IMG/VR virus record: IMGVR_UViG_3300008262_000780
Location: 1 to 36,955 of that record
Source: a virus
DNA: 36,955 nt
Strand: one strand, 5' to 3'
Notes under the pieces: generated by a model
Database searches by the model: none
What the model was told of the DNA's origin: nothing
Seen by the model: only the letters and a program-made list of their open reading frames with translations
Program-made: the position numbers and the translations under genes
Shown here: positions 3,709 through 27,638 of the stretch, piece after piece
Position numbering within the stretch: the first letter of the stretch is position 1
How the letters are laid out: every line of letters starts with the position of its first letter

Positions 3709-5550
3709 ATGGAAATAGTAAAACTAAAACCCAGCGCCCCCAAGTTCGAATATGACAAGTGGTGGCGCAAGTACGGCCTATCCGAAAACGCAACCACTAA
3801 AGAAAAAAATTTATGGTGGGGGAAGGAACGTGAGCAGTACTGGCTTGAGGGACGTTTTGGTTTAGCTCCTGCTCACTACTTCATGCTTACGCAAGCTACG
3901 ATCAAGACAGCAACAGGTGCAAGAATACGTCCTGTCTGGAGGGACCTTGATGATTTGATCTACGGATCATACCACGAAGCGAAGAATACTTTCTGGGACC
4001 TAATGGTCACCAAGCGTCGTGAAGCAGGTTTGTCATTAACTTTCGGCGGTGTCATTCCAATCTGGATTGCATTTACCAACCCCGGTTCCACTTCACTTCT
4101 AACCTCAGCGGATAAAACTCGTCTTGAAGAAATGTACAAGGACAAACTTCGTGTTGTCTTTGACGGAATTGATTCTTACTATCGTCCGGGGATCATCTCA
4201 ACAAGACAGACTGGTTACCTGCACATGGGTAAACTGGACAAAGCAACTGGTAAGATCAGTGGGTTGGACTCGAAGATAGTAACTCGTGATACAGTTGAAC
4301 AACCTACTTCTCTGGAAGCGTTTCGTGCGATGCATGTATTCCTCGATGAGTTCTTTCTGCATCCTTACGCTGACAAGGTTTATCGTTCAGCTCAGGCTTC
4401 TACCAAAGATGGTTTCATCAAAGTTGCTCCCATTGTCATGGGGGGTAGTGCGGGTGAATCATCTGTAGAAGGTCAGAAGAAAGGCGCTGAGCTTTGGAAA
4501 AATGCGGAGATCATCAAGATGCTTACTGTTTTTCTACCCGGTTGGATGGGGATTCAGAAAGCACCAGAACTCGATGAGAAAGGTAGAGAGACAGGTAAGA
4601 TATTAAACTTCTGTCCCAATGGACACAGCGATGAAAAAGCTGCTACAGAATGGGTAATGAAGACCAGAGAGAACTTGGACAAACTAGAGGACAAGAAGTA
4701 TCTGGAGTCATTTATAAAGCAGTATCCACTCACTATTCAAGAAGTGTTTACTGCAAACGCCAAAGGTGCATTACCTCAGGACGTAATGTCAAAGTTGGTA
4801 GAGAGAGAAAGGATTTTGCTTGGTAACCCACCACCAATCGAACGGTGTGACTTGATCAAGAATGTAGATGGAAAAATCGAAGTCAAACCAAACCCGAAAG
4901 GTAAGATTTTGATGCTTGAACGCTACAACCCAGAGCACAACTATATTGCCGGCATGGACCCAATCCCATTTGTTTCCAATAAACTGAATGATGGTTCGGA
5001 CAATTGCACTGCGATCAAAGATGCAGATACAAATAGGTACGTAGCGATCTACAAGGAACGTGCGTTGGACCCAGATGTAATCATGCACAACACAATTCTC
5101 ATGCAGGATTATTTCGGAAAGGCAAAGGTGAATATTGAGGTGAACCGAGGGGGTGTTATTCTAGACCAGTACAGACAGTTGAACCGTCAAGACTTACTGG
5201 CTTATCGTCCTACCCTGCTGGGTAAAGCATTCAATGCCGGAGATAGAACCTATGGTTGGTACAAAGGCGATGAAACTGGACAGCGAGGCAATGCTTTGAT
5301 CATCGACTACTTGAGAAAATTCTGGATGGAGATTTACTTTCAGGAAATTATCGACGAAGCGAAGAACTATCTCGTAGACAACACGGATATTATTGATGCC
5401 ATGGTATCGTGTGAAATTCAGCACAAGCAGATTCTGGAGAAAAATAAAAGGGATCGTGGGCCAGAGTTAGTGGCCAAGAAGATCCCTACTATTCAAATGG
5501 TAAATGGTAAAGCGGTCAAGGTTTGGGTTGAAGTTAAGCTTCAGAAATAA
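3709..5550 (+). CDS. terL: terminase large subunit
   Basis: 613 aa packaging motor. The N-terminal ATPase shows an atypical Walker A at about 101-109 (TKRREAGLS) and Walker B at 208-215 (MHVFLDEF, with Asp 213 and catalytic Glu 214). The C-terminal RNase H-like nuclease has Asp 417 (YIAGMDP), a second acidic strand near Glu 477 (VNIEVNRGG) and Asp 560/563 (DNTDIIDAM). It translocates DNA into the prohead through the portal and cuts at the end of packaging. It follows the putative small subunit by two bases and its stop overlaps, tail to tail, the end of the minus-strand DnaA-like gene by 17 bases. Confidence 0.92.
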   Translation: MEIVKLKPSAPKFEYDKWWRKYGLSENATTKEKNLWWGKEREQYWLEGRFGLAPAHYFMLTQATIKTATGARIRPVWRDLDDLIYGSYHEAKNTFWDLMVTKRREAGLSLTFGGVIPIWIAFTNPGSTSLLTSADKTRLEEMYKDKLRVVFDGIDSYYRPGIISTRQTGYLHMGKLDKATGKISGLDSKIVTRDTVEQPTSLEAFRAMHVFLDEFFLHPYADKVYRSAQASTKDGFIKVAPIVMGGSAGESSVEGQKKGAELWKNAEIIKMLTVFLPGWMGIQKAPELDEKGRETGKILNFCPNGHSDEKAATEWVMKTRENLDKLEDKKYLESFIKQYPLTIQEVFTANAKGALPQDVMSKLVERERILLGNPPPIERCDLIKNVDGKIEVKPNPKGKILMLERYNPEHNYIAGMDPIPFVSNKLNDGSDNCTAIKDADTNRYVAIYKERALDPDVIMHNTILMQDYFGKAKVNIEVNRGGVILDQYRQLNRQDLLAYRPTLLGKAFNAGDRTYGWYKGDETGQRGNALIIDYLRKFWMEIYFQEIIDEAKNYLVDNTDIIDAMVSCEIQHKQILEKNKRDRGPELVAKKIPTIQMVNGKAVKVWVEVKLQK

Positions 5551-6034
5551 TCTTCATCGCTTCTTCGCTAAACCTTTTGTAGATAGCGGTATATATCTTT
5601 TCCGTTTCTATCCTTGTTTCGTGTACGTTGCATGCATGCAGAATTGTACTGTGATGCTTCATGAACCACATTGCAACTCTTACTGAATTGTAACCCACTT
5701 TCTTGTGAAGAAAGAATATCACCATTCGCTGTGCTTCAAGGACCTCTTCCTTTCTGGTGTTGCTGCAAAACACTTCCAAATCGACCTCATTCTCTTGACA
5801 AGAAAGTATTATGATTCTTTGAATGCTGGCCGGAAGCGTATGAAAAACCAACTTGACCTGAGGCTTTCTGGGAGCCATTGATTTCTTATCGACTAGGATT
5901 CTGGTTTTGAACTTGCGATAGGATTCATTTTTGTAGATTTGTTTGAGAATCTTGTGCTTGTAGATATCTTCGATATTGGCAGCCTTCATCACGATGTCAA
6001 TGATCTCCATCGTGTACTCTTGTACGTTTTTCAT
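5534..6034 (-). CDS. DnaA domain IV-like DNA-binding protein
   Basis: 166 aa. Residues around 95-132 read EAQRMVIFFLHKKVGYN, then a segment ending HHSTILHACNVH; this corresponds to the DnaA C-terminal domain IV (helix-turn-helix plus the DHTTVLHA signature that contacts the DnaA box), with HHSTILHA replacing DHTTVLHA. No AAA+ ATPase domain is present, so it cannot melt an origin as full DnaA does. It may bind DnaA boxes, and two consensus boxes occur at 25846 and 25879. The start overlaps the stop of the preceding gene by four bases (ATGA). It ends the minus-strand replication operon. Confidence 0.65.
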   Translation of the reverse strand: MKNVQEYTMEIIDIVMKAANIEDIYKHKILKQIYKNESYRKFKTRILVDKKSMAPRKPQVKLVFHTLPASIQRIIILSCQENEVDLEVFCSNTRKEEVLEAQRMVIFFLHKKVGYNSVRVAMWFMKHHSTILHACNVHETRIETEKIYTAIYKRFSEEAMKIISEA

Positions 6035-6724: not shown

Positions 6725-8173
6725 TTAAAATAGTTTTAGTTGTTTAGGTTCAACGACATCAATGATCTTCAAACATTCAGTTACAAAAAACTCATAGTTG
6801 ATGTTGTAGTCTTCGAAGTTCTCAGGTTCATAGTAACGATTGAACTTCATGGTTTTCTGGTTGGCTAAAAGGCTATGCACTCGTCCGTCAACGTTTACCT
6901 TGAGGGATGTACCACCACCTTTTATCACTGGGAAAAACCGGAGCATCTTACCATGGTTCTCTTGAATAACTTTGTTTTTCTCCTTATCCAAGTAGTTGAA
7001 CACCGCTGACCACCCACTGTACGCCTTGTATCTACCACAAAAATCATAGATGTTCTTGCTGTTCTTTACAGTTTCTTCAATTGGCACACCGCTTACATAG
7101 TAAGCTTCAAGAGCTTTTGGTACAATGAGGAATGAGTTGTCTTTGTGCAGTTGCTTTTCGGTTTCAAATATACCTTTCTTTTTGACTTTACCGTCCATGC
7201 TTATGGCCAGATAGTTGTTTACATCACGGATTACCATCTTCGAATACTCCACTGACTCAAGAATTAACTTGGTTTGCTTGCACCACTCCTCGCTAATCTC
7301 TTCTACGATGTGAACTTTGTCTCTGGGGATTCGGATCGTAATACCATCGGTATTGATTTGAAGCATTTCCAAGCCGGGAACGTTGTCTACGAACTTCTCA
7401 GCCAACATAGAAAGCAACAGCTGTCCATTCAAAGTAATCGAATAGAAGTAGTAACGATCGTAGAAGGCTGAAGTAACCTCACCAGTTTTACCAAACACTC
7501 CATTGAGAGCAAGCTTCAAACCTGCATCTTCTGTTTTGTTCTTGGCTTTCTGTGCCTCGACACGTTTTTCAAAGAGACTCTTGTACGTTTCTACAAACGC
7601 TGCTTGAGGAATGTGCTTTGGGTGCAGGTCATTTTGAATGGCAAGGTTTGGATAGTAACTCTTCACATCAATATCTATAATGATATAGTTGTCATCGCTG
7701 CAATAAACCCCCGGTTCGATACATCCATGGACACCCCCAACTCCGTAGTCATACTGAAAGCCTTTGTACTTGACATTGTATTTTAGCTTCTGTGCGTCAG
7801 AAACTACCGTCCACTTGACTTTATTCAGCAATTCTTGGAATGCTGCACTTTCAAACTTTACGTACGGCAGAATGCATTTATTTAAGTCAATGGTTTTGTC
7901 AAACTGAACAGCGTCCCTTAGTTCTTTCTTGCTCAATCCAAACTCCTTGCGAATCGCCTTGAGAAAGATTTCCTCGCCGATTGCAATGTCTGGCATGTTC
8001 AGCATGAAACGCTTGTTCAACTTACCCAGTTCTTTTCTGAAGGTGAGTTGGTCTTTGCAGATTTCAAAGAAGGCTTGGGTACTCAGAACATCGTTCATAT
8101 TGTACTCTAGGATCTCGGGAATCATTTCCTCGGTGACCATGGTTGTGTGGTGAAAAGGCATATCCTGAACCAC
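6725..8173 (-). CDS. family B DNA polymerase, polymerase domain and end of exonuclease domain
   Basis: 482 aa from GTG 8173. It carries Exo III (Tyr 24 to Asp 28, YNMND), polymerase motif A at about 166-176 (DIDVKSYYPN), motif B at 220-228 (KLALNGVFG) and motif C around 273-277 (INTDG, in place of YxDTDS). The N-terminal part, with Exo I and Exo II, lies in a different frame at 8122-8412. From Exo II Asp to Exo III Tyr there are about 126 bases (42 codons), while related polymerases have about 100 residues, so roughly 60 residues appear missing as well as a frame change. This is either a deleted proofreading domain, a split gene, or an assembly fault. The polymerase motifs look intact. Confidence 0.85.
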   Translation of the reverse strand: MVQDMPFHHTTMVTEEMIPEILEYNMNDVLSTQAFFEICKDQLTFRKELGKLNKRFMLNMPDIAIGEEIFLKAIRKEFGLSKKELRDAVQFDKTIDLNKCILPYVKFESAAFQELLNKVKWTVVSDAQKLKYNVKYKGFQYDYGVGGVHGCIEPGVYCSDDNYIIIDIDVKSYYPNLAIQNDLHPKHIPQAAFVETYKSLFEKRVEAQKAKNKTEDAGLKLALNGVFGKTGEVTSAFYDRYYFYSITLNGQLLLSMLAEKFVDNVPGLEMLQINTDGITIRIPRDKVHIVEEISEEWCKQTKLILESVEYSKMVIRDVNNYLAISMDGKVKKKGIFETEKQLHKDNSFLIVPKALEAYYVSGVPIEETVKNSKNIYDFCGRYKAYSGWSAVFNYLDKEKNKVIQENHGKMLRFFPVIKGGGTSLKVNVDGRVHSLLANQKTMKFNRYYEPENFEDYNINYEFFVTECLKIIDVVEPKQLKLF

Positions 8174-8412
8174 TGGCCAGAAGATTTCATTTTGTGAATG
8201 TTATCTGTGATCAAATCACAAACAACACGGTCAAAATGAACGTTGTTGTACCCAATTCGATACCTTGGTTCCATCAGGTACTTGTAAAGTTTGTTTAGAT
8301 CATCTCGGCTTTCGTGAAGGACAAATATATTTGTCTCTTTGGTTTTGATGTCGATGTCCGTGTAGGAGAAAAAATTAGGGAATATCTCAATGTCGTATAC
8401 TACCGTATTCAT
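8122..8412 (-). CDS. family B DNA polymerase, N-terminal exonuclease fragment
   Basis: 96 aa. Exo I is at residues 5-9 (VYDIE, catalytic Asp 7 and Glu 9) and Exo II at 55-61 (YNNVHFD, Asp 61). After about residue 75 (DNIHKM) the frame leaves the expected sequence and ends as unrelated residues (SGQWFRICLFTTQ), overlapping the downstream polymerase frame by 52 bases. Alone it could not form a complete 3'-5' exonuclease. ATG 8412 follows an A-rich leader typical here. Confidence 0.75.
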   Translation of the reverse strand: MNTVVYDIEIFPNFFSYTDIDIKTKETNIFVLHESRDDLNKLYKYLMEPRYRIGYNNVHFDRVVCDLITDNIHKMKSSGQWFRICLFTTQPWSPRK

Positions 8413-15229: not shown

Positions 15230-15344
15230 TAGTCAGGACAGGATTCGAACCTATACACACGATTACCGTAGTCGTATTGCTTTTCGCTACTTCAACCTCG
15301 TGCCACTATATTTGAATGTGCGTCTACCATTTCGCCACCTGACT
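15230..15344 (-). tRNA. tRNA-like gene 1, 115 nt, anticodon not assigned
   Basis: Acceptor arms AGTCAGG and CCTGACT pair over seven bases, with discriminator A. The T arm is canonical (ATAGG, loop TTCGAAT, CCTGT). The D arm GCG/CGC with loop AAATGGTAGA resembles leucine tRNAs. The rest (about 65 nt) is too long: an ATTCAAATA segment could hold a CAA anticodon between a weak CAC/GTG stem, and a second hairpin ACGA/TCGT lies in what would be the variable arm. Either a class II tRNA-Leu with a huge variable arm or a tRNA-like RNA. Confidence 0.6.
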
Positions 15345-15408
15345 ATTTATAAGAACGTCTTTCTACCACCGCAACCCCGAACAAACTGAATTGAACGGGG
15401 CGAGGTAG
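15345..15408 (-). repeat. tRNA-region structured repeat, copy C
   Basis: Nearly identical to copy D, including the flank (TTTATAAGAACGTCTTTC) next to the tRNA. Pairings: CTACC (15363-15367)/GGTAG (15404-15408) outside and CCCCG (15375-15379)/CGGGG (15396-15400) inside. On the minus strand it ends just before the 5' end of tRNA-like gene 1 and also contains TTGCGG, 17 bases, TATAAA, so it might act as a promoter, a processing signal, or both. Confidence 0.65.
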
Positions 15409-15459
15409 CCATTTCCCTTGTTGGCTTGGATTCCAACTTCCTACCTAATCGTAGGCGCG

Positions 15460-15546
15460 TAGTCAGGAAAGGACTCGAACCTTTGAAGTACCACCACACA
15501 ACATAACCATGATTGGTATTTATTGTTAATGTTGCGCCACCTGACT
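15460..15546 (-). tRNA. tRNA-like gene 2, 87 nt, anticodon uncertain (CAT possible)
   Basis: The same AGTCAGG/CCTGACT acceptor stem as gene 1, discriminator A, and T arm AAAGG, TTCGAGT, CCTTT. No D stem is apparent after GCG; a strong hairpin (CAACAT with ATGTTG, extended by AAC/GTT) covers the middle. A CAT triplet preceded by T lies inside. Not a normal cloverleaf as read by eye. Confidence 0.5.
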
Positions 15547-15609
15547 ATTTATAAGAACGTCTTTCACCACCGCAACCCCGAACAAACTGAATTGAACGGG
15601 GTGAGGTAG
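15547..15609 (-). repeat. tRNA-region structured repeat, copy D
   Basis: Matches copy C almost base for base over about 60 positions. Inner stem CCCCG (15576-15580)/CGGGG (15597-15601). On the minus strand it directly precedes tRNA-like gene 2 with the same TTCTTATAAAT junction. The TTGCGG to TATAAA spacing is 16 instead of 17. Confidence 0.65.
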
Positions 15610-15669
15610 ACCACTTGCATTTTGTTTAGTTGCAACAACTCAATGCCAATCCTCTTATGGCCGATTTTG

Positions 15670-15741
15670 TGGTCATGACAGGACTCGAACCTGCATATCC
15701 AACATTTGCCGTGTTGGGCGTTCCATTTCCGCCACATGACC
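15670..15741 (-). tRNA. tRNA-Cys(GCA)-like, 72 nt, with G at position 33
   Basis: The most regular member of the array: acceptor GGTCATG/CATGACC with discriminator A, D arm GGCG/CGCC, anticodon stem CAACA/TGTTG, variable GATAT, and T arm GCAGG, TTCGAGT, CCTGT. The seven-base anticodon loop reads CGGCAAA, which places GCA (cysteine) at 34-36 but G instead of the near-universal U at 33. CCA is not encoded. Confidence 0.75.
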
Positions 15742-15953
15742 AAGTAGCACCCTGATTTATCCAACTTACAGGTGCTGTGGCTGTCCCTATTGCTAGGTTA
15801 GGAATAGACTTTTTGACTCTCCTTCTTGAGGGATCTTACCGTCTCAGCAGTCAACTGGGTGATTTACATATCTACCACCAACTTTCCCATACGGACATCA
15901 CTCCGTTTCTCTTCGTATTGGGAATACTATCCGTTGTCATGTTTCGGATCGTG
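15742..15953. other. 212-base spacer with hairpins inside the tRNA array
   Basis: No coding frame is supported. Two strong pairings are seen: AGCACC (15746-15751)/GGTGCT (15771-15776), and CCCATACG (15886-15893)/CGTATTGGG (15914-15922). It could hold a degenerate tRNA or a small RNA; nothing more can be said. Confidence 0.35.
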
Positions 15954-16081
15954 TGGGGAGAGCAGGATTCGAACCTGCATCAAAGCGGATTAACTCGGGA
16001 GTTTATACCGTACTTCTTCCGCCGTATCAAAGATACTTACCGGCCCTTGCCGATGTGTTTATCCATTTACACCATCTCCCC
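15954..16081 (-). tRNA. tRNA-like gene 4, 128 nt, anticodon not assigned
   Basis: Acceptor GGGGAGA/TCTCCCC with discriminator A, D arm GTG/CAC (loop TAAATGGATAAA), T arm GCAGG, TTCGAAT, CCTGC. The middle holds ATCGG/CCGGT with loop CAAGGGC, then GTATC-TTT-GATAC, then GCGGA/TCCGC enclosing AACTC/GAGTT, over 50 nt more than a class I tRNA. If the first hairpin is the anticodon arm, position 33 is A, not U. Confidence 0.55.
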
Positions 16082-16084
16082 AAA

Positions 16085-16147
16085 TACCCTGTAGTTTTTA
16101 ATTTAGTATCCGCAGAAATACAGGGAATAGAATCACCAAATGATTCT
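16085..16147. other. tandem hairpins between tRNA-like genes
   Basis: CCCTGTA (16087-16093) pairs with TACAGGG (16119-16125), and AGAATCA (16129-16135) with TGATTCT (16141-16147) around a five-base loop. Likely processing or spacer structures in the tRNA precursor. Confidence 0.4.
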
Positions 16148-16160
16148 AAAAACTGCGTTG

Positions 16161-16259
16161 TAGTCAGGACAGGATTCGAACCTGTAAGAACTCTTTTTAT
16201 TCTTCACTCTGGTTACTGTATTTCACCAGCCATGGCTTTACCAATTCCGCCACCTGACT
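16161..16259 (-). tRNA. tRNA-like gene 5, 99 nt, anticodon not assigned
   Basis: AGTCAGG/CCTGACT acceptor stem again, discriminator A; D arm GGC/GCC with GG in the loop; T arm ACAGG, TTCGAAT, CCTGT. A central stem CTGGT/ACCAG carries an 11-base loop (GAAATACAGTA) rather than seven, and a variable arm AAGAA/TTCTT follows. It resembles a class II tRNA with an enlarged anticodon loop. Confidence 0.6.
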
Positions 16260-16541: not shown

Positions 16542-17498
16542 TTATGAAAACGAAACCAATGTTTTAGCAGTCCTCTCGTTGAGCCACTCGACAATGGTGT
16601 CGTAAGCCAAGTTATTTATTTCTGCGCCAGTTCCTGTCATTAGATAGGAATTCTTATTTGCTTTGGCCGGCATAGCCATGTGATTTGTGTAGCGAGTCAC
16701 AGCGTTGAACAAGCCCCAAACCGTATCCCCTTCGAGGTCACGTTCCATGTTGTAGGCTTGAGCAAACTGAGCAAGTTGGTTTCTTCTACGAGTAGAAACT
16801 TCCCCGATGTTTTGGTTTCTGCTGTCCAAGCTAAACATCTTGTTTATCACAGCCTCAACAACACTCTCATGAGGGGCGGTCTCAGACATTCTTCTAAATG
16901 TCTCGAACATTCTCTCATCTTCTTTGATAGTCTCTTGAAACTGGCGAATGGCAACTTCGATCCGTTCTTTAGAATTCTCTGTGTGACGGAACTTTTCGGT
17001 GTCCTTGTATGCTCTGTAGAAAGTATTGGAGCAGATAACTACCTCGTTGGTAGAACCAAAGGAGATAGATGAAGAGCCATCGTGAGAGTTGAGTACGGTA
17101 ACCCAACGTTTAACTCCCGACTTACCAACATATTCATCAGGCAACTCGGCTTGAAGGAAAACCTTCTTGCCATGGTCTAATTGACCGCCACGGTTGGTGT
17201 TGATTCCGATGCCGTCAGTAGCTCGGACAATTGTATCGGCAAGTTCCCAGTTTTGGAACACACGATATCTGTCTTTGACTGTACCGAAGCATGTGGTTGG
17301 AGTTGCAGAGTTTGCGTTTTCGTATCTAAAGATACCGTAGAAATCTGTCTGAAGCCCAGTGTCGTGGTAAAGTCTTTCTTTCTTGACTTCCCAATTAAGC
17401 CCTGTGCGTTCGAGCAGGTTCATTGTCTTCTCGAAATTGTCGAGGTTAAGTTCAGTGTTCATTGTTGAGTTTTTGTTGATTGTGTTTGCGTTTTCCAT
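16542..17498 (-). CDS. DUF932 family phage/plasmid-like protein
   Basis: 318 aa. Typical DUF932 features are present: GLNWEVKKERLYHDTG near the N-terminus, YRVFQNWELADTI, the strand pair KVFLQAELPDEY and RWVTVLNSHDGSSSISFG, VVICSNTF and the C-terminal WGLFNAVTRYTNH. The family is common in phages and plasmids, with roles possibly in DNA recombination or replication but no settled function. ATG 17498 chosen; ATG 17462 is an alternative. An A-rich leader precedes it. Confidence 0.8.
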   Translation of the reverse strand: MENANTINKNSTMNTELNLDNFEKTMNLLERTGLNWEVKKERLYHDTGLQTDFYGIFRYENANSATPTTCFGTVKDRYRVFQNWELADTIVRATDGIGINTNRGGQLDHGKKVFLQAELPDEYVGKSGVKRWVTVLNSHDGSSSISFGSTNEVVICSNTFYRAYKDTEKFRHTENSKERIEVAIRQFQETIKEDERMFETFRRMSETAPHESVVEAVINKMFSLDSRNQNIGEVSTRRRNQLAQFAQAYNMERDLEGDTVWGLFNAVTRYTNHMAMPAKANKNSYLMTGTGAEINNLAYDTIVEWLNERTAKTLVSFS

Positions 17499-19422: not shown

Positions 19423-19748
19423 AGCAAGTCGGTGTTCGCCCCGAAACCAACATCGTTAGGGTGCTCAATGGTAAATGGTATGTTGAGTTTGCTAAGTTCC
19501 TTAGTGAAAATGTTTGCTACTCGGCTAAACTCTTCGAATAATTCACTGAATACAGTCTCATTGATTGCTTTGACTTCGGCAGATGCTTGTTGGATTTCGG
19601 TTTGCTGTTGTAAAACAACATGGGAAAACAAACTATCAGCATCGTTTCCCCGGCTACGATTCAGATTAATAAACTTTGTTTCTAAATCTTTGATTAGAAT
19701 TTGTTGTCCTTCGGTAAGGTCGTTCGATTTTTTCAGATTAATTGACAT
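19413..19748 (-). CDS. hypothetical helical protein, 111 aa
   Basis: Start at ATG 19748 (MSINLKKSNDLTEGQQ), preceded by a Bacteroidota-like leader of repeated CGCAAAA; a longer frame reaching 19826 would run into inverted repeat 2. Mostly helical with a long amphipathic middle. Function unknown. Confidence 0.5.
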   Translation of the reverse strand: MSINLKKSNDLTEGQQILIKDLETKFINLNRSRGNDADSLFSHVVLQQQTEIQQASAEVKAINETVFSELFEEFSRVANIFTKELSKLNIPFTIEHPNDVGFGANTDLLWS

Positions 19749-23423: not shown

Positions 23424-23744
23424 TTACTTGGTTTCGTCCTCGAAATAAGGATACTTTTCTGTTGGCTTGAATGGTTCTGTGCTGTATTGTTCATGATACA
23501 ATCTATCGATTGAGTCCACGATGTCAGAAATCATGTTGACATATTGAACATAGAAATTAGGGTGAAACAAACTCACTCTGCCTTCGGCAGCATCTTTTCT
23601 GTCCTTTTCCCAAATCGCAGGTAGTTCTTCTTTGATAAACTCAGCATCTTTTTTGATTCTGTCCATCAAGTACCCTTGGTACATTGGATGCATGCTTTTG
23701 ATTCCTTGGATAAGTAAGTCGGCGGTTGTTTTTTGCTTTTTCAT
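23424..23744 (-). CDS. hypothetical protein, 106 aa
   Basis: Helical, charged soluble protein with an acidic end (YPYFEDETK). The AATCAAAGAAAAA leader lies seven bases upstream of ATG. First gene after inverted repeat 4. Confidence 0.5.
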   Translation of the reverse strand: MKKQKTTADLLIQGIKSMHPMYQGYLMDRIKKDAEFIKEELPAIWEKDRKDAAEGRVSLFHPNFYVQYVNMISDIVDSIDRLYHEQYSTEPFKPTEKYPYFEDETK

Positions 23745-23791
23745 GATTGTTTTTTCTTTGATTAATTGTTTGTTTGGGGTTGATTTGGGGT

Positions 23792-23811
23792 TTCAGAGCC
23801 ATTCAGAGCCA
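23792..23811. repeat. tandem 10-base repeat
   Basis: TTCAGAGCCA occurs twice head to tail, between inverted repeat 4 and the 106-aa gene. It could be an operator with two sites or a slippage product. Confidence 0.6.
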
Positions 23812-24862: not shown

Positions 24863-25723
24863 TTATCTAACCTCCATGCGAAACTTTCTCCAAACTGATT
24901 TTTCAACGTCAGAACGGTGTTCAAAAGCCTCTTCGTGAGAAATCGTAGATTTCTTTTCTTCCTTTGGAGCATTGGTCTTCATGAAGGCTTCAAGAAGATT
25001 GATTTGAGAGCTTTCTTTCTTCTTGACAACCTTCGGTTGAGTTACGACAACCTTGCTTTCAACCTTTGGTTGAGTTACTGCAACCTTAGGTTGTTTCACA
25101 ACCTTTTGAACAACCTTCTCAACAACCTTTGGTTGAGATTGAAGTTCAACAATAGCTTTGCTATTGGCTTGAACCATCTCTGTAAGAGATGCCATTTGAG
25201 TTGCCAAGGCTGTAACTGATTTTGTCAATTCAAGTAAAACTTGATTTTCGGCAGTCGGCTTTTCAACCTTCGGTTGTTTCGCAGGGGGCGCTGGCTTGCT
25301 TGCTTTTGGTTTTTCAGCAACAACCTTCGGTTGACTTGGGGCTTCAGAACCGTAAAAAGGACGTAGGAAAGTCTCTTTCAGAGACTCACGCTCACTTTTT
25401 GGGTCAAAAGATAGCCTAATGTCAATCATAGATTGAAGAGTCGCCATTTGAAGTTCTACGAACTTTTGGTGAATTGGTTGACCATAAAAGTGCCTCCAAC
25501 CTTCGGTTGAAGCTTGGGCTAGAAGCTGTAGATAAACGACTCTGTCGTTAATGCGCTTGGATAGCCACGCTTTCTTGGTCTTTCTTGAGGCAAAAGATTC
25601 CAAATGGCTAAGGATTGCATCCTTAGTAAAAACTTTCCTCGATTCGATGAAACTCTGTTTCATTGCTTCGGTAACTTGATTTTGAATGCTCTGCATTTTG
25701 GTTTGTTTGGTTTGGTTCTTCAT
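24863..25723 (-). CDS. modular protein with QPKV repeats, 286 aa
   Basis: A helical N-terminus (1-115), a Pro/Lys-rich linker with repeated QPKV/PKVV motifs (about 130-240) around a coiled-coil-like segment (LELTKSVTALATQMASLTEMVQ), and a charged C-terminus. Several repeats are encoded by the CAACCTTNGGTTG palindrome. It is the first gene left of the origin region, transcribed away from it, a place where early or regulatory genes are often found. No domain recognised. Confidence 0.6.
   Translation of the reverse strand: MKNQTKQTKMQSIQNQVTEAMKQSFIESRKVFTKDAILSHLESFASRKTKKAWLSKRINDRVVYLQLLAQASTEGWRHFYGQPIHQKFVELQMATLQSMIDIRLSFDPKSERESLKETFLRPFYGSEAPSQPKVVAEKPKASKPAPPAKQPKVEKPTAENQVLLELTKSVTALATQMASLTEMVQANSKAIVELQSQPKVVEKVVQKVVKQPKVAVTQPKVESKVVVTQPKVVKKKESSQINLLEAFMKTNAPKEEKKSTISHEEAFEHRSDVEKSVWRKFRMEVR
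25027..25509. repeat. cluster of CAACCTTNGGTTG palindromes
   Basis: Thirteen-base palindromes at 25027, 25060, 25081, 25123, 25264, 25321 and 25497; further copies at 24102 and (with CTA in the centre) 24328. Most are read as Q-P-K-V, but the 25497 copy is read as S-T-E-G-W, a different frame. This suggests that the DNA or RNA sequence itself matters. Confidence 0.7.
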
Positions 25724-25737
25724 AATTTTACTTTGTG

Positions 25738-25801
25738 TTTTTATATTAAGAGTTACTACTAACTACACCCTTTACAAGGGTTAGTAGTAACTCTATAAAA
25801 A
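25738..25801. repeat. long inverted repeat 5 of 5
   Basis: TTTTTAT/ATAAAAA outside and AGAGTTACTACTAAC (25749-25763)/GTTAGTAGTAACTCT (25780-25794) inside, a perfect 15-base-pair arm, with CCCTT/AAGGG in the loop. Sits 15 bases before the ATG at 25723 and at the edge of the origin region. Confidence 0.8.
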
Positions 25802-26474
25802 CCCAAAGTAATTAGTCGGTTTGGGACTTGGGGACTCAGAACCACTTATTCACATCACTTACCTAAAGGTAAAAAGACTTATCCACAAATCCCTTTAACT
25901 ACGTTAACTCTTGCGTAACCTATAGGGACAGACATACATCCAAGGGCATGTATCCAAGCCTTGTTTCCCCATGCAGTTCCACACACCGAAAAAAGCGCCC
26001 CTATATGCGCCCACACAGCCGTGTACACAGGTGAGGAAAACCTCCTACTAAACTCTAAAGAGTTTAAGTGCCAGAGAAATAGCAATGTAAGCTTTGCTTA
26101 AGGGGTGAAGCCGTCCCAAAAATTGGACACTTTTTAGGGCAAACAGGAACTGTTTGATTTTAGGAGAAGCACCAACATTCTTTCTTTAGGCTGACTGAAT
26201 CTCCGATTCAAATCCTTAAAGCCACCCCAATCCATCCCCTTCCGACACCAACAAATGTTGGTTCTACCTATATAAACCGCCATTTGACCGAAGGTCAGTC
26301 GAATTTTTATTTCGCATGCTAAACCCCGCACGAAGAACACGCACGGTTTTGCGCCCCCGCACAGGTGTGAAGATGGGGGGTGTTTTTTTGAGGGGATTAC
26401 CGTAGATTTTTGTATCGTTAACCTCCAGCCCTCACACAAACATCACCCCGGGGGGTAAACGTACCCGGGGGTAA

Positions 26475-26507
26475 TAAAAAAGACCCCCTGATCATTACCA
26501 GAGGGCC
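26475..26507 (-). terminator. Rho-independent terminator
   Basis: On the minus strand GGCCCTCTG pairs with CAGGGGGTC (two wobble pairs), followed by six Ts. Lies about 130 bases beyond the last gene of the recombination operon (26638), which it probably ends. Confidence 0.7.
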
Positions 26508-26518
26508 TTAAAAATGGG

Positions 26519-26562
26519 TTTTGTATAGGTTTTTTAGCGTTTTGTATAACATTTTGTATAAC
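26519..26562 (+). repeat. three TTTTGTATA direct repeats
   Basis: TTTTGTATA at 26519, 26540 and 26552, the last two extended to TTTTGTATAAC and 12 bases apart. Short iterated AT-rich sites near a putative origin may be protein-binding iterons. Confidence 0.45.
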
Positions 26563-26573
26563 TTTTCAGAAAC

Positions 26574-26604
26574 TTGGTCTCCGATTTTCCCGGGTGGAGA
26601 CCAA
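26574..26604. other. strong hairpin
   Basis: TTGGTCTCC (26574-26582) pairs perfectly with GGAGACCAA (26596-26604) around 13 bases. It lacks a T run on the minus side, so it is not a clear terminator; it may protect the 3' end of the operon mRNA. Confidence 0.5.
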
Positions 26605-26637
26605 AAAAGTTCCACAAAAAGTTACACAGACACTTTT

Positions 26638-27227: not shown

Positions 27228-27638
27228 TTAGTTGAATTCTTGGTTTTTAAAATCATCAAAATCATCTGTGATAATGGATATAAGAATTACCCCCCAGCCA
27301 ATCCATAATACAAAGTAGGTAGGTACTGGATAAATACCGGTGTGTGCTTCATACCATCTTGCCAGTAGGGGTGTTACCAGTGTGTTCACCACTGCCAGTG
27401 CAAACATAATGTAGAGCTTTGTTTTCTTACTCATAGATATTTGCTGCTTTTCTAAAAGCATCTTTAGTTTCCAAGTTTCATCGTGAAACCATTGTACCGC
27501 CGTGATATTTCTATAACGGCTATCTGGACAACATGCTAAGTATGGCTCTCCATTTTCGTTTACCCCAAGCGGTACGCCCTCGATTGCTCCGCAACCAGTA
27601 CATCGCCTGATTGTCGATAAGTGATTATTGTTCTCCAT
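27228..27638 (-). CDS. zinc-finger membrane protein, Lar-like N-terminus, 136 aa
   Basis: Residues 13-45 (RRCTGCGAIEGVPLG, YLACCPDSRYRNITAVQWF) place Cys pairs like the small zinc ribbon of restriction-alleviation (Lar) proteins. Two hydrophobic segments follow (about 75-93 and 108-125) and an acidic tail. Combining a cytoplasmic zinc ribbon with membrane anchoring is unusual. Assignment to Lar is tentative. Confidence 0.55.
   Translation of the reverse strand: MENNNHLSTIRRCTGCGAIEGVPLGVNENGEPYLACCPDSRYRNITAVQWFHDETWKLKMLLEKQQISMSKKTKLYIMFALAVVNTLVTPLLARWYEAHTGIYPVPTYFVLWIGWGVILISIITDDFDDFKNQEFN

Follow-up and report, generated by a model that had tools for sequence, protein, structure and literature searches.

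Two DnaA boxes in a gene-free part of a phage genome raise the question of what they do there, and whether a DnaA-like protein encoded by the same phage reads them. The window, meaning the whole stretch of DNA analyzed, is a virus record of 36,955 b. Its phage group has a size of about 63-72 kb and is known here from freshwater-type IMG/VR contigs. One other record, G001, is nearly identical to the window over most of the window's length, with a background identity of ~99.9% and indels at 19437, 23628-23801 and 27436-27630. Its portal shows a distant relationship to the portal of a Crassvirales phage (19.8% identity), and a host search with the terminase against GTDB genome contigs returned no relative. 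The late arm of G001 contains a giant ORF (G001:41628-53174; 3,848 aa, and 3,406-4,237 aa in relatives) in which HELAH, a motif resembling those of metalloproteases, is conserved; apart from one marginal match, neither Pfam nor PHROG assigns this ORF.

A previous sequence-only reading reported two exact matches to TTATNCACA, on the same strand and 33 b apart, flanking the palindrome TTACCTAAAGGTAA in a region without genes. A sequence scan confirmed each of these points, the 33 b being measured from start to start, and the surrounding gap runs for 914 b without a convincing gene, its only ORFs being short and unsupported.

25846-25854, + strand: DnaA box 1, TTATTCACA, exact consensus
25859-25872, between the boxes: short palindrome or hairpin, TTACC-TAAA-GGTAA, kept in three phages with changed stem bases
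25879-25887, + strand: DnaA box 2, TTATCCACA, exact consensus
25724-26637: gene-free gap with nine short hairpins, all kept in three sister phages

The consensus has no further exact match anywhere in the window. The number of boxes is at chance level (2 in 37 kb versus 1.67 expected, the mean of shuffles); a same-strand pair within 42 b was seen in 0 of 400 dinucleotide shuffles.

The element is kept in three phages, namely the window/G001, whose box regions are identical, G002 and G004. The 286-aa protein encoded beside the gap is 57% identical to that of the window in G002 and 50% in G004. Both boxes are exact in G002 and lie 32 b apart. The first box of G004 is TTATCCACA, and the second is TTGTCCACA, which carries a mismatch; one of the two changed box positions in this phage is the free N position. 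Relative to the window, changes in G002 affect 0 of 18 box positions versus 28 of 110 surrounding positions (p=0.008), and those in G004 affect 2 of 18 versus 57 of 123 (p=0.003). Box distances of 33, 32 and 35 b correspond to about three helical turns. The palindrome between the boxes occurs as TTACC-TAAA-GGTAA, TTACC-ATA-GGTAA and TTATCC-TAAA-GGATAA. Sister phages thus retain both the boxes and a covarying palindrome. No exact box was found at the same locus in the more distant relatives G010, G011, L086 and L089, which have the same gene order and a hairpin zone, and most of which encode a domain IV protein. Thus, the box pair is a feature of one clade. The zone had no match among phage nucleotide records, and a search with a conserved 22-mer from it yielded no additional sister phages.

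A sequence resembling a DnaA-trio, TAGTAGTAA, is present at 25782-25790. Its distance to box 1 is 55 b and G004 lacks it, so this candidate was dropped as too remote from the box and not conserved. No DnaA-trio of the kind expected in a basal unwinding system lies within ~16 b of either box.

The protein that might read the boxes is encoded some distance away.

5534-6034, - strand: 166-aa DnaA domain IV protein of the phage, its N-terminal extension helical and an ATPase domain absent (PF08299, 1j1v and fold match)

It scores 33.7 bits against Pfam Bac_DnaA_C (PF08299), just over the cut-off of 31.5, and a profile of its relatives finds 1j1v, the complex of E. coli domain IV with its box, at E=1e-11. 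A structure model of the protein (pLDDT 90.6) reaches VIA Z scores of 13.9 against 1j1v and 14.4 against 3pvp, with 93-96 residues aligned. Both are domain IV-DNA complexes, and the next unrelated fold reaches 5.9. Judged by profile and predicted fold, the 166-aa protein is a DnaA domain IV. Only this domain was matched, and the N-terminal part consists of three short helices; the protein lacks the AAA+ ATPase domain of a full DnaA initiator, just as the sequence-only reading had said. Domain IV exceeds the Pfam cut-off in 12 of 16 related records, several of the remainder being fragments, and the gene adjoins terminase in relatives.

In the DnaA box-reading signature ascribed to this protein, the window protein has H where its relatives have D. 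The relatives read K-D-H-S-[ST], E. coli DnaA reads R-D-H-T-T and the window protein reads K-H-H-S-T; in this DH-S/T signature, D is present in every relative and in E. coli, and H in the window protein alone. At the box-reading residues of E. coli DnaA, which we take to be R399, D433, H434 and T435, the window protein keeps R and H, replaces T with S and replaces D with H. The D of the signature contacts the box in DnaA crystal work. Therefore, binding of the window protein to a canonical box is uncertain. A possible action of the protein at these particular boxes was also part of the sequence-only reading, and nothing beyond co-occurrence in the sister clade connects the two. The more distant relatives argue against the connection, since most of them encode a domain IV protein yet none has an exact box at the locus.

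GC skew, proposed earlier as a check, gave no support to the zone. Neither the whole-genome skew nor that of the early arm turns there; the turns fall at the boundaries of the arms and some 9-13 kb downstream of the zone, where the cumulative early-arm skew has its minimum. In such phages, skew largely follows gene strand. Among five phages, this minimum falls near a 318-aa gene (16542-17498 in the window) or a few kb beyond it, and that region is a possible alternative place for a replication-related signal. Taken as a whole, the sequence-only reading was right about the boxes, the palindrome and the ATPase-less domain IV protein, and conservation in the sisters supports it; the tie between protein and boxes and its own skew check gave no support, and the main feature, the hairpin array described below, escaped it.

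The early arm encodes a RecE-like exonuclease, a T7-type primase-helicase and a phage DNA polymerase; a single-strand-binding role for a 259-aa gene of this arm is a guess. Its genes converge with the late arm at the boundary between terminase and the domain IV protein. The polymerase, of family B type, is split in the window into 8122-8412 and 6725-8173 (within 6725-8412). The near-identical G001 has a single 618-aa ORF with about 166 b more at the split, so the window record has a deletion or assembly error there. Elsewhere, at 15230-16259, three tRNA-like matches occur in 1 kb, one a clear tRNA-Cys and two whose spans, 99 and 115 b, are unusually long, and this region includes a 79-b direct repeat (15330-15408/15532-15609, 96% identical).

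The boxes lie at the edge of a much larger structure, an array of short hairpins that surrounds them and runs on into the neighboring gene.

24863-25723, - strand: gene for the 286-aa protein, with the densest hairpins in coding DNA
25728-25811: long imperfect palindrome of 84 b, 71% A+T, ending 4 b before the 286-aa start codon
26638-27225, - strand: gene for a 195-aa protein that borders the zone, where hairpin density falls sharply

Homologs of the 195-aa gene border the zone in G001, G002, G004, G010, G011, L086 and L089. The long palindrome is built from two inverted repeats (25728-25745/25794-25811 and 25749-25763/25780-25794) and is conserved in G002 and G004 with its inner stem exchanged; L086/L089 have an analogous long hairpin ahead of a homologous 286-aa-type gene. 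Within the 286-aa gene itself, 12 triloop hairpins whose stems measure 6-8 bp lie at 24938-25663. In a structure model, the product of this gene has a helical N-terminal part and a coiled coil and is otherwise disordered (mean pLDDT 61.5). QPKV repeats of this protein in the window, G002 and G004 are encoded by CAACC-AAA-GGTTG or CAACC-GAA-GGTTG hairpins, as though copies of the hairpin had accumulated within the frame. Towards the right end of the gap, at 26364-26625, 38 differences between the window and G001 are clustered.

Throughout the gap and the 286-aa gene, perfect Watson-Crick hairpins are dense, mostly with stems of 6-9 and 3-base loops. Counting perfect stems of at least 6 in the interval bounded by the stop codons of the 195-aa and 286-aa genes, we found 84 loop-3 hairpins versus 4.6 expected in seven phages, an 18-fold excess over shuffles, although these phages are related and their counts are not independent. 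Loops of 2 are enriched 7-fold, loops of 4 are enriched 4-fold and loops of at least 6 about 1-2-fold. When synonymous codons were shuffled so that protein and codon usage were preserved, the 286-aa gene ranked first of 361 ORFs for hairpins in 5 of 5 genomes tested (z 7.9-13.8). Thus, the excess exceeds what the protein requires. Density begins abruptly at the 195-aa gene and declines gradually over several kb downstream. The zone holds 7-18 triloop hairpins in stretches of 1.8-3.7 kb, versus a mean of 0.7 and a maximum of 6 per 1.8 kb in 200 random windows drawn elsewhere. Three relatives without the 286-aa gene (G012, G015 and G016) have no such zone, and neither does the crAss-like phage cr50_1, whose portal is distantly related and which reaches at most 3 triloop hairpins per 1.8 kb. 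The contigs of G008, G009, G010, L087 and L088 end inside the zone or at its edge, and L053/L050, L056, L080, L087, L088 and L067 were flagged for contig ends at the zone; such ends could be due to difficulties in assembling across hairpins or to hypervariability of this region.

The composition of the stems points to hairpins that act, or arise, as DNA rather than RNA. Perfect stems number 153 versus 14.2 expected (11-fold). Stems with one G.U pair (18 versus 22.9 expected) or one A.C pair (33 versus 32) are not enriched. Selection on RNA would let G.U through; since the stems readily contain A-T pairs, a mere requirement for stability would not keep G.U out of an RNA. DNA hairpins prefer a 3-base loop closed by a 5'-pyrimidine/purine-3' pair, and the closing pair is 5'Y-R3' in 76 of the 84 triloops (90%), compared with about half in shuffles. 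Apart from this closing pair, a search for a sequence consensus in stems and flanks found none.

The way in which the stems evolve favors selection, with a possible mutational part. In close pairs, the rate of change in stems is 2.5-4 times lower than in the six flanking bases to each side (0.13 versus 0.31 for G001/G002; 0.05-0.07 versus 0.19-0.27 for L086/L089). Changes on both sides that preserve pairing exceed expectation in several comparisons, but not in more distant ones with G004. In L086/L089, the amino-acid change pair ATTGAGTGAAACTCAAT to ATTGACTGAAAGTCAAT preserves a hairpin at the protein's cost. Loops are mostly conserved.

We tentatively propose, with a probability of about 0.38, that the boxes belong to a cis-acting DNA zone of ~1.8 kb (24.9-26.6 kb) that would serve replication initiation, and in which they would be a clade-specific docking site. 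This reading is favored because DnaA boxes, an A+T-rich long palindrome and hairpins friendly to single strands come together in the replication arm, and the phage has retained the site-reading domain of DnaA. Under negative supercoiling or in single-stranded DNA, the hairpins would extrude and could keep a strand accessible to helicase or primase. The paired boxes of the sister clade would be occupied by a DnaA-type protein, either that of the phage or that of the host or the two competing, which would mark or regulate the site. Without an AAA+ domain, the phage protein cannot melt DNA as DnaA does, and it would instead serve as a tether, blocker or regulator. The strongest counter-evidence is the GC skew. 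In addition, there are only two boxes, exact boxes are missing from the zones of G010, G011, L086 and L089, the signature of the window protein reads H instead of D, and the hairpins in coding DNA could serve something other than replication. Of the marks of a DnaA-dependent origin, clustered and conserved boxes are present (in two sisters, and absent from distant phages), whereas trios close to a box and a skew turn are not.

The main rival is an operator. The paired boxes would then bind a DnaA-type protein, either phage domain IV or host DnaA, that represses or activates transcription of the 286-aa gene together with the early genes that follow; the long palindrome would control translation or transcription, and the hairpins would be a separate matter. 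The boxes precede the start codon by 123-165 b, an ATPase-less DNA-binding domain suits a repressor, and the conserved long hairpin stops just short of the gene. DnaA is a known transcription factor (PMC8203912). However, no recognizable promoter accompanies the boxes, and hairpins within the coding sequence are left unexplained; we consider this role unlikely, if worth keeping in view. A next and rather less probable alternative is that the zone acts as RNA, either a structured early leader or a large non-coding RNA running into the 286-aa mRNA, with the boxes as unpaired loop sequence. Folding energies of the gap far below those of shuffles in five phages (z -4 to -12), hairpins kept with changed stems, a density that falls in the direction of transcription and a tRNA gene within the G011 zone all agree with an RNA. 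Yet both strands fold equally well and reach these energies alike, G.U pairs are not enriched despite the free use of A-T, and triloops dominate rather than longer loops. Rfam, including GOLLD and ROOL and with relaxed thresholds too, gave no family at gathering score in the window or in G011 other than tRNA; the weak matches are chance matches of miRNA type.

Mutation could also leave such hairpins behind. Template switching by a polymerase between small inverted repeats, in a zone of stalled or restarted replication, would make imperfect stems perfect, and the boxes would be due to chance or unrelated. A single event of this kind produces a perfect stem and several compensatory changes together, bypassing G.U intermediates (PMC8794818), and the process would account for a density that declines from one point. 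Sister phages show one tetraloop in inverted form (AAAT/ATTT). This was the one clear case, and loop inversion was set aside as a sign of template switching because most loops are conserved. The slow change of stems relative to flanks and the conservation of the boxes do not fit either, and we regard this origin as improbable. The least credible alternative, and a very improbable one, is that the hairpins are early promoters of the kind used by phage N4, which are small DNA hairpins extruded by supercoiling (PMC4496689), to be read by an injected virion RNA polymerase. A giant late protein of 3.4-4.2 thousand residues exists in the relatives, but a virion RNA polymerase within it has no support from Pfam, PHROG or conserved RNA polymerase motifs, and its recognizable motif is the metalloprotease-like HELAH. 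Promoters would also be expected to share a flank or stem consensus and to number three, not dozens.

Beyond the proposed replication zone of this clade, arrays of DNA-type triloop hairpins lying partly in a coding gene might represent a new kind of phage cis element, an origin or strand-exposure zone defined by shape rather than sequence, with a domain-IV-only protein as site reader in one clade. We consider this broader proposal doubtful in its full form. If the zone works as proposed, codon choice in a gene of a double-stranded DNA phage gives way to a DNA element coded by shape, and the DnaA initiator has been divided so that the phage retains just the half that reads the site. It would then become testable how start sites are chosen in phages with a family B polymerase and a T7-type primase-helicase, and what role a DnaA lacking its ATPase domain plays. 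Should the zone not be an origin, a conserved array with an 18-fold triloop excess and no tolerance of G.U still needs explanation. Searches of open-licence papers yielded no report of DNA-type triloop hairpins arrayed by the dozen across a gap and a coding gene, and none is known to us.

Several known systems share parts of this arrangement. As in bacterial oriC, exact 9-base boxes on one strand lie beside an A+T-rich stretch; here, however, there are two boxes only, no GC-skew turn and a phage DnaA without an ATPase domain. Basal unwinding systems use a spacer limit of 16 b for the DnaA-trio (PMC8287927), and within that limit no trio is present here. The A-site of the ABC-primosome is a single-stranded hairpin with a DnaA box that loads helicase on single strands (PMC6127211). 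It likewise combines box and hairpin, although there the box is in the hairpin stem, whereas here the boxes flank the hairpin. Bacillus podophages Pony and Pascal have a gene annotated as DnaA-like (PMC3853050 and the Pascal abstract), and the available description of that gene includes no boxes or hairpin array. Phage N4 early promoters are also small DNA hairpins meant to extrude, but N4 has three promoters with conserved sequence, whereas dozens of hairpins are found here, their consensus is the closing pair only and no virion polymerase was identified. Mitochondrial genes of Nematomorpha contain perfect inverted repeats inside coding sequence (PMC6649704); those palindromes reach 284 bp, whereas the phage hairpins measure 15-20 b and have 3-base loops. 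The domain IV protein and the phage DnaA boxes are variants of known things; the hairpin array is, to our knowledge, new.
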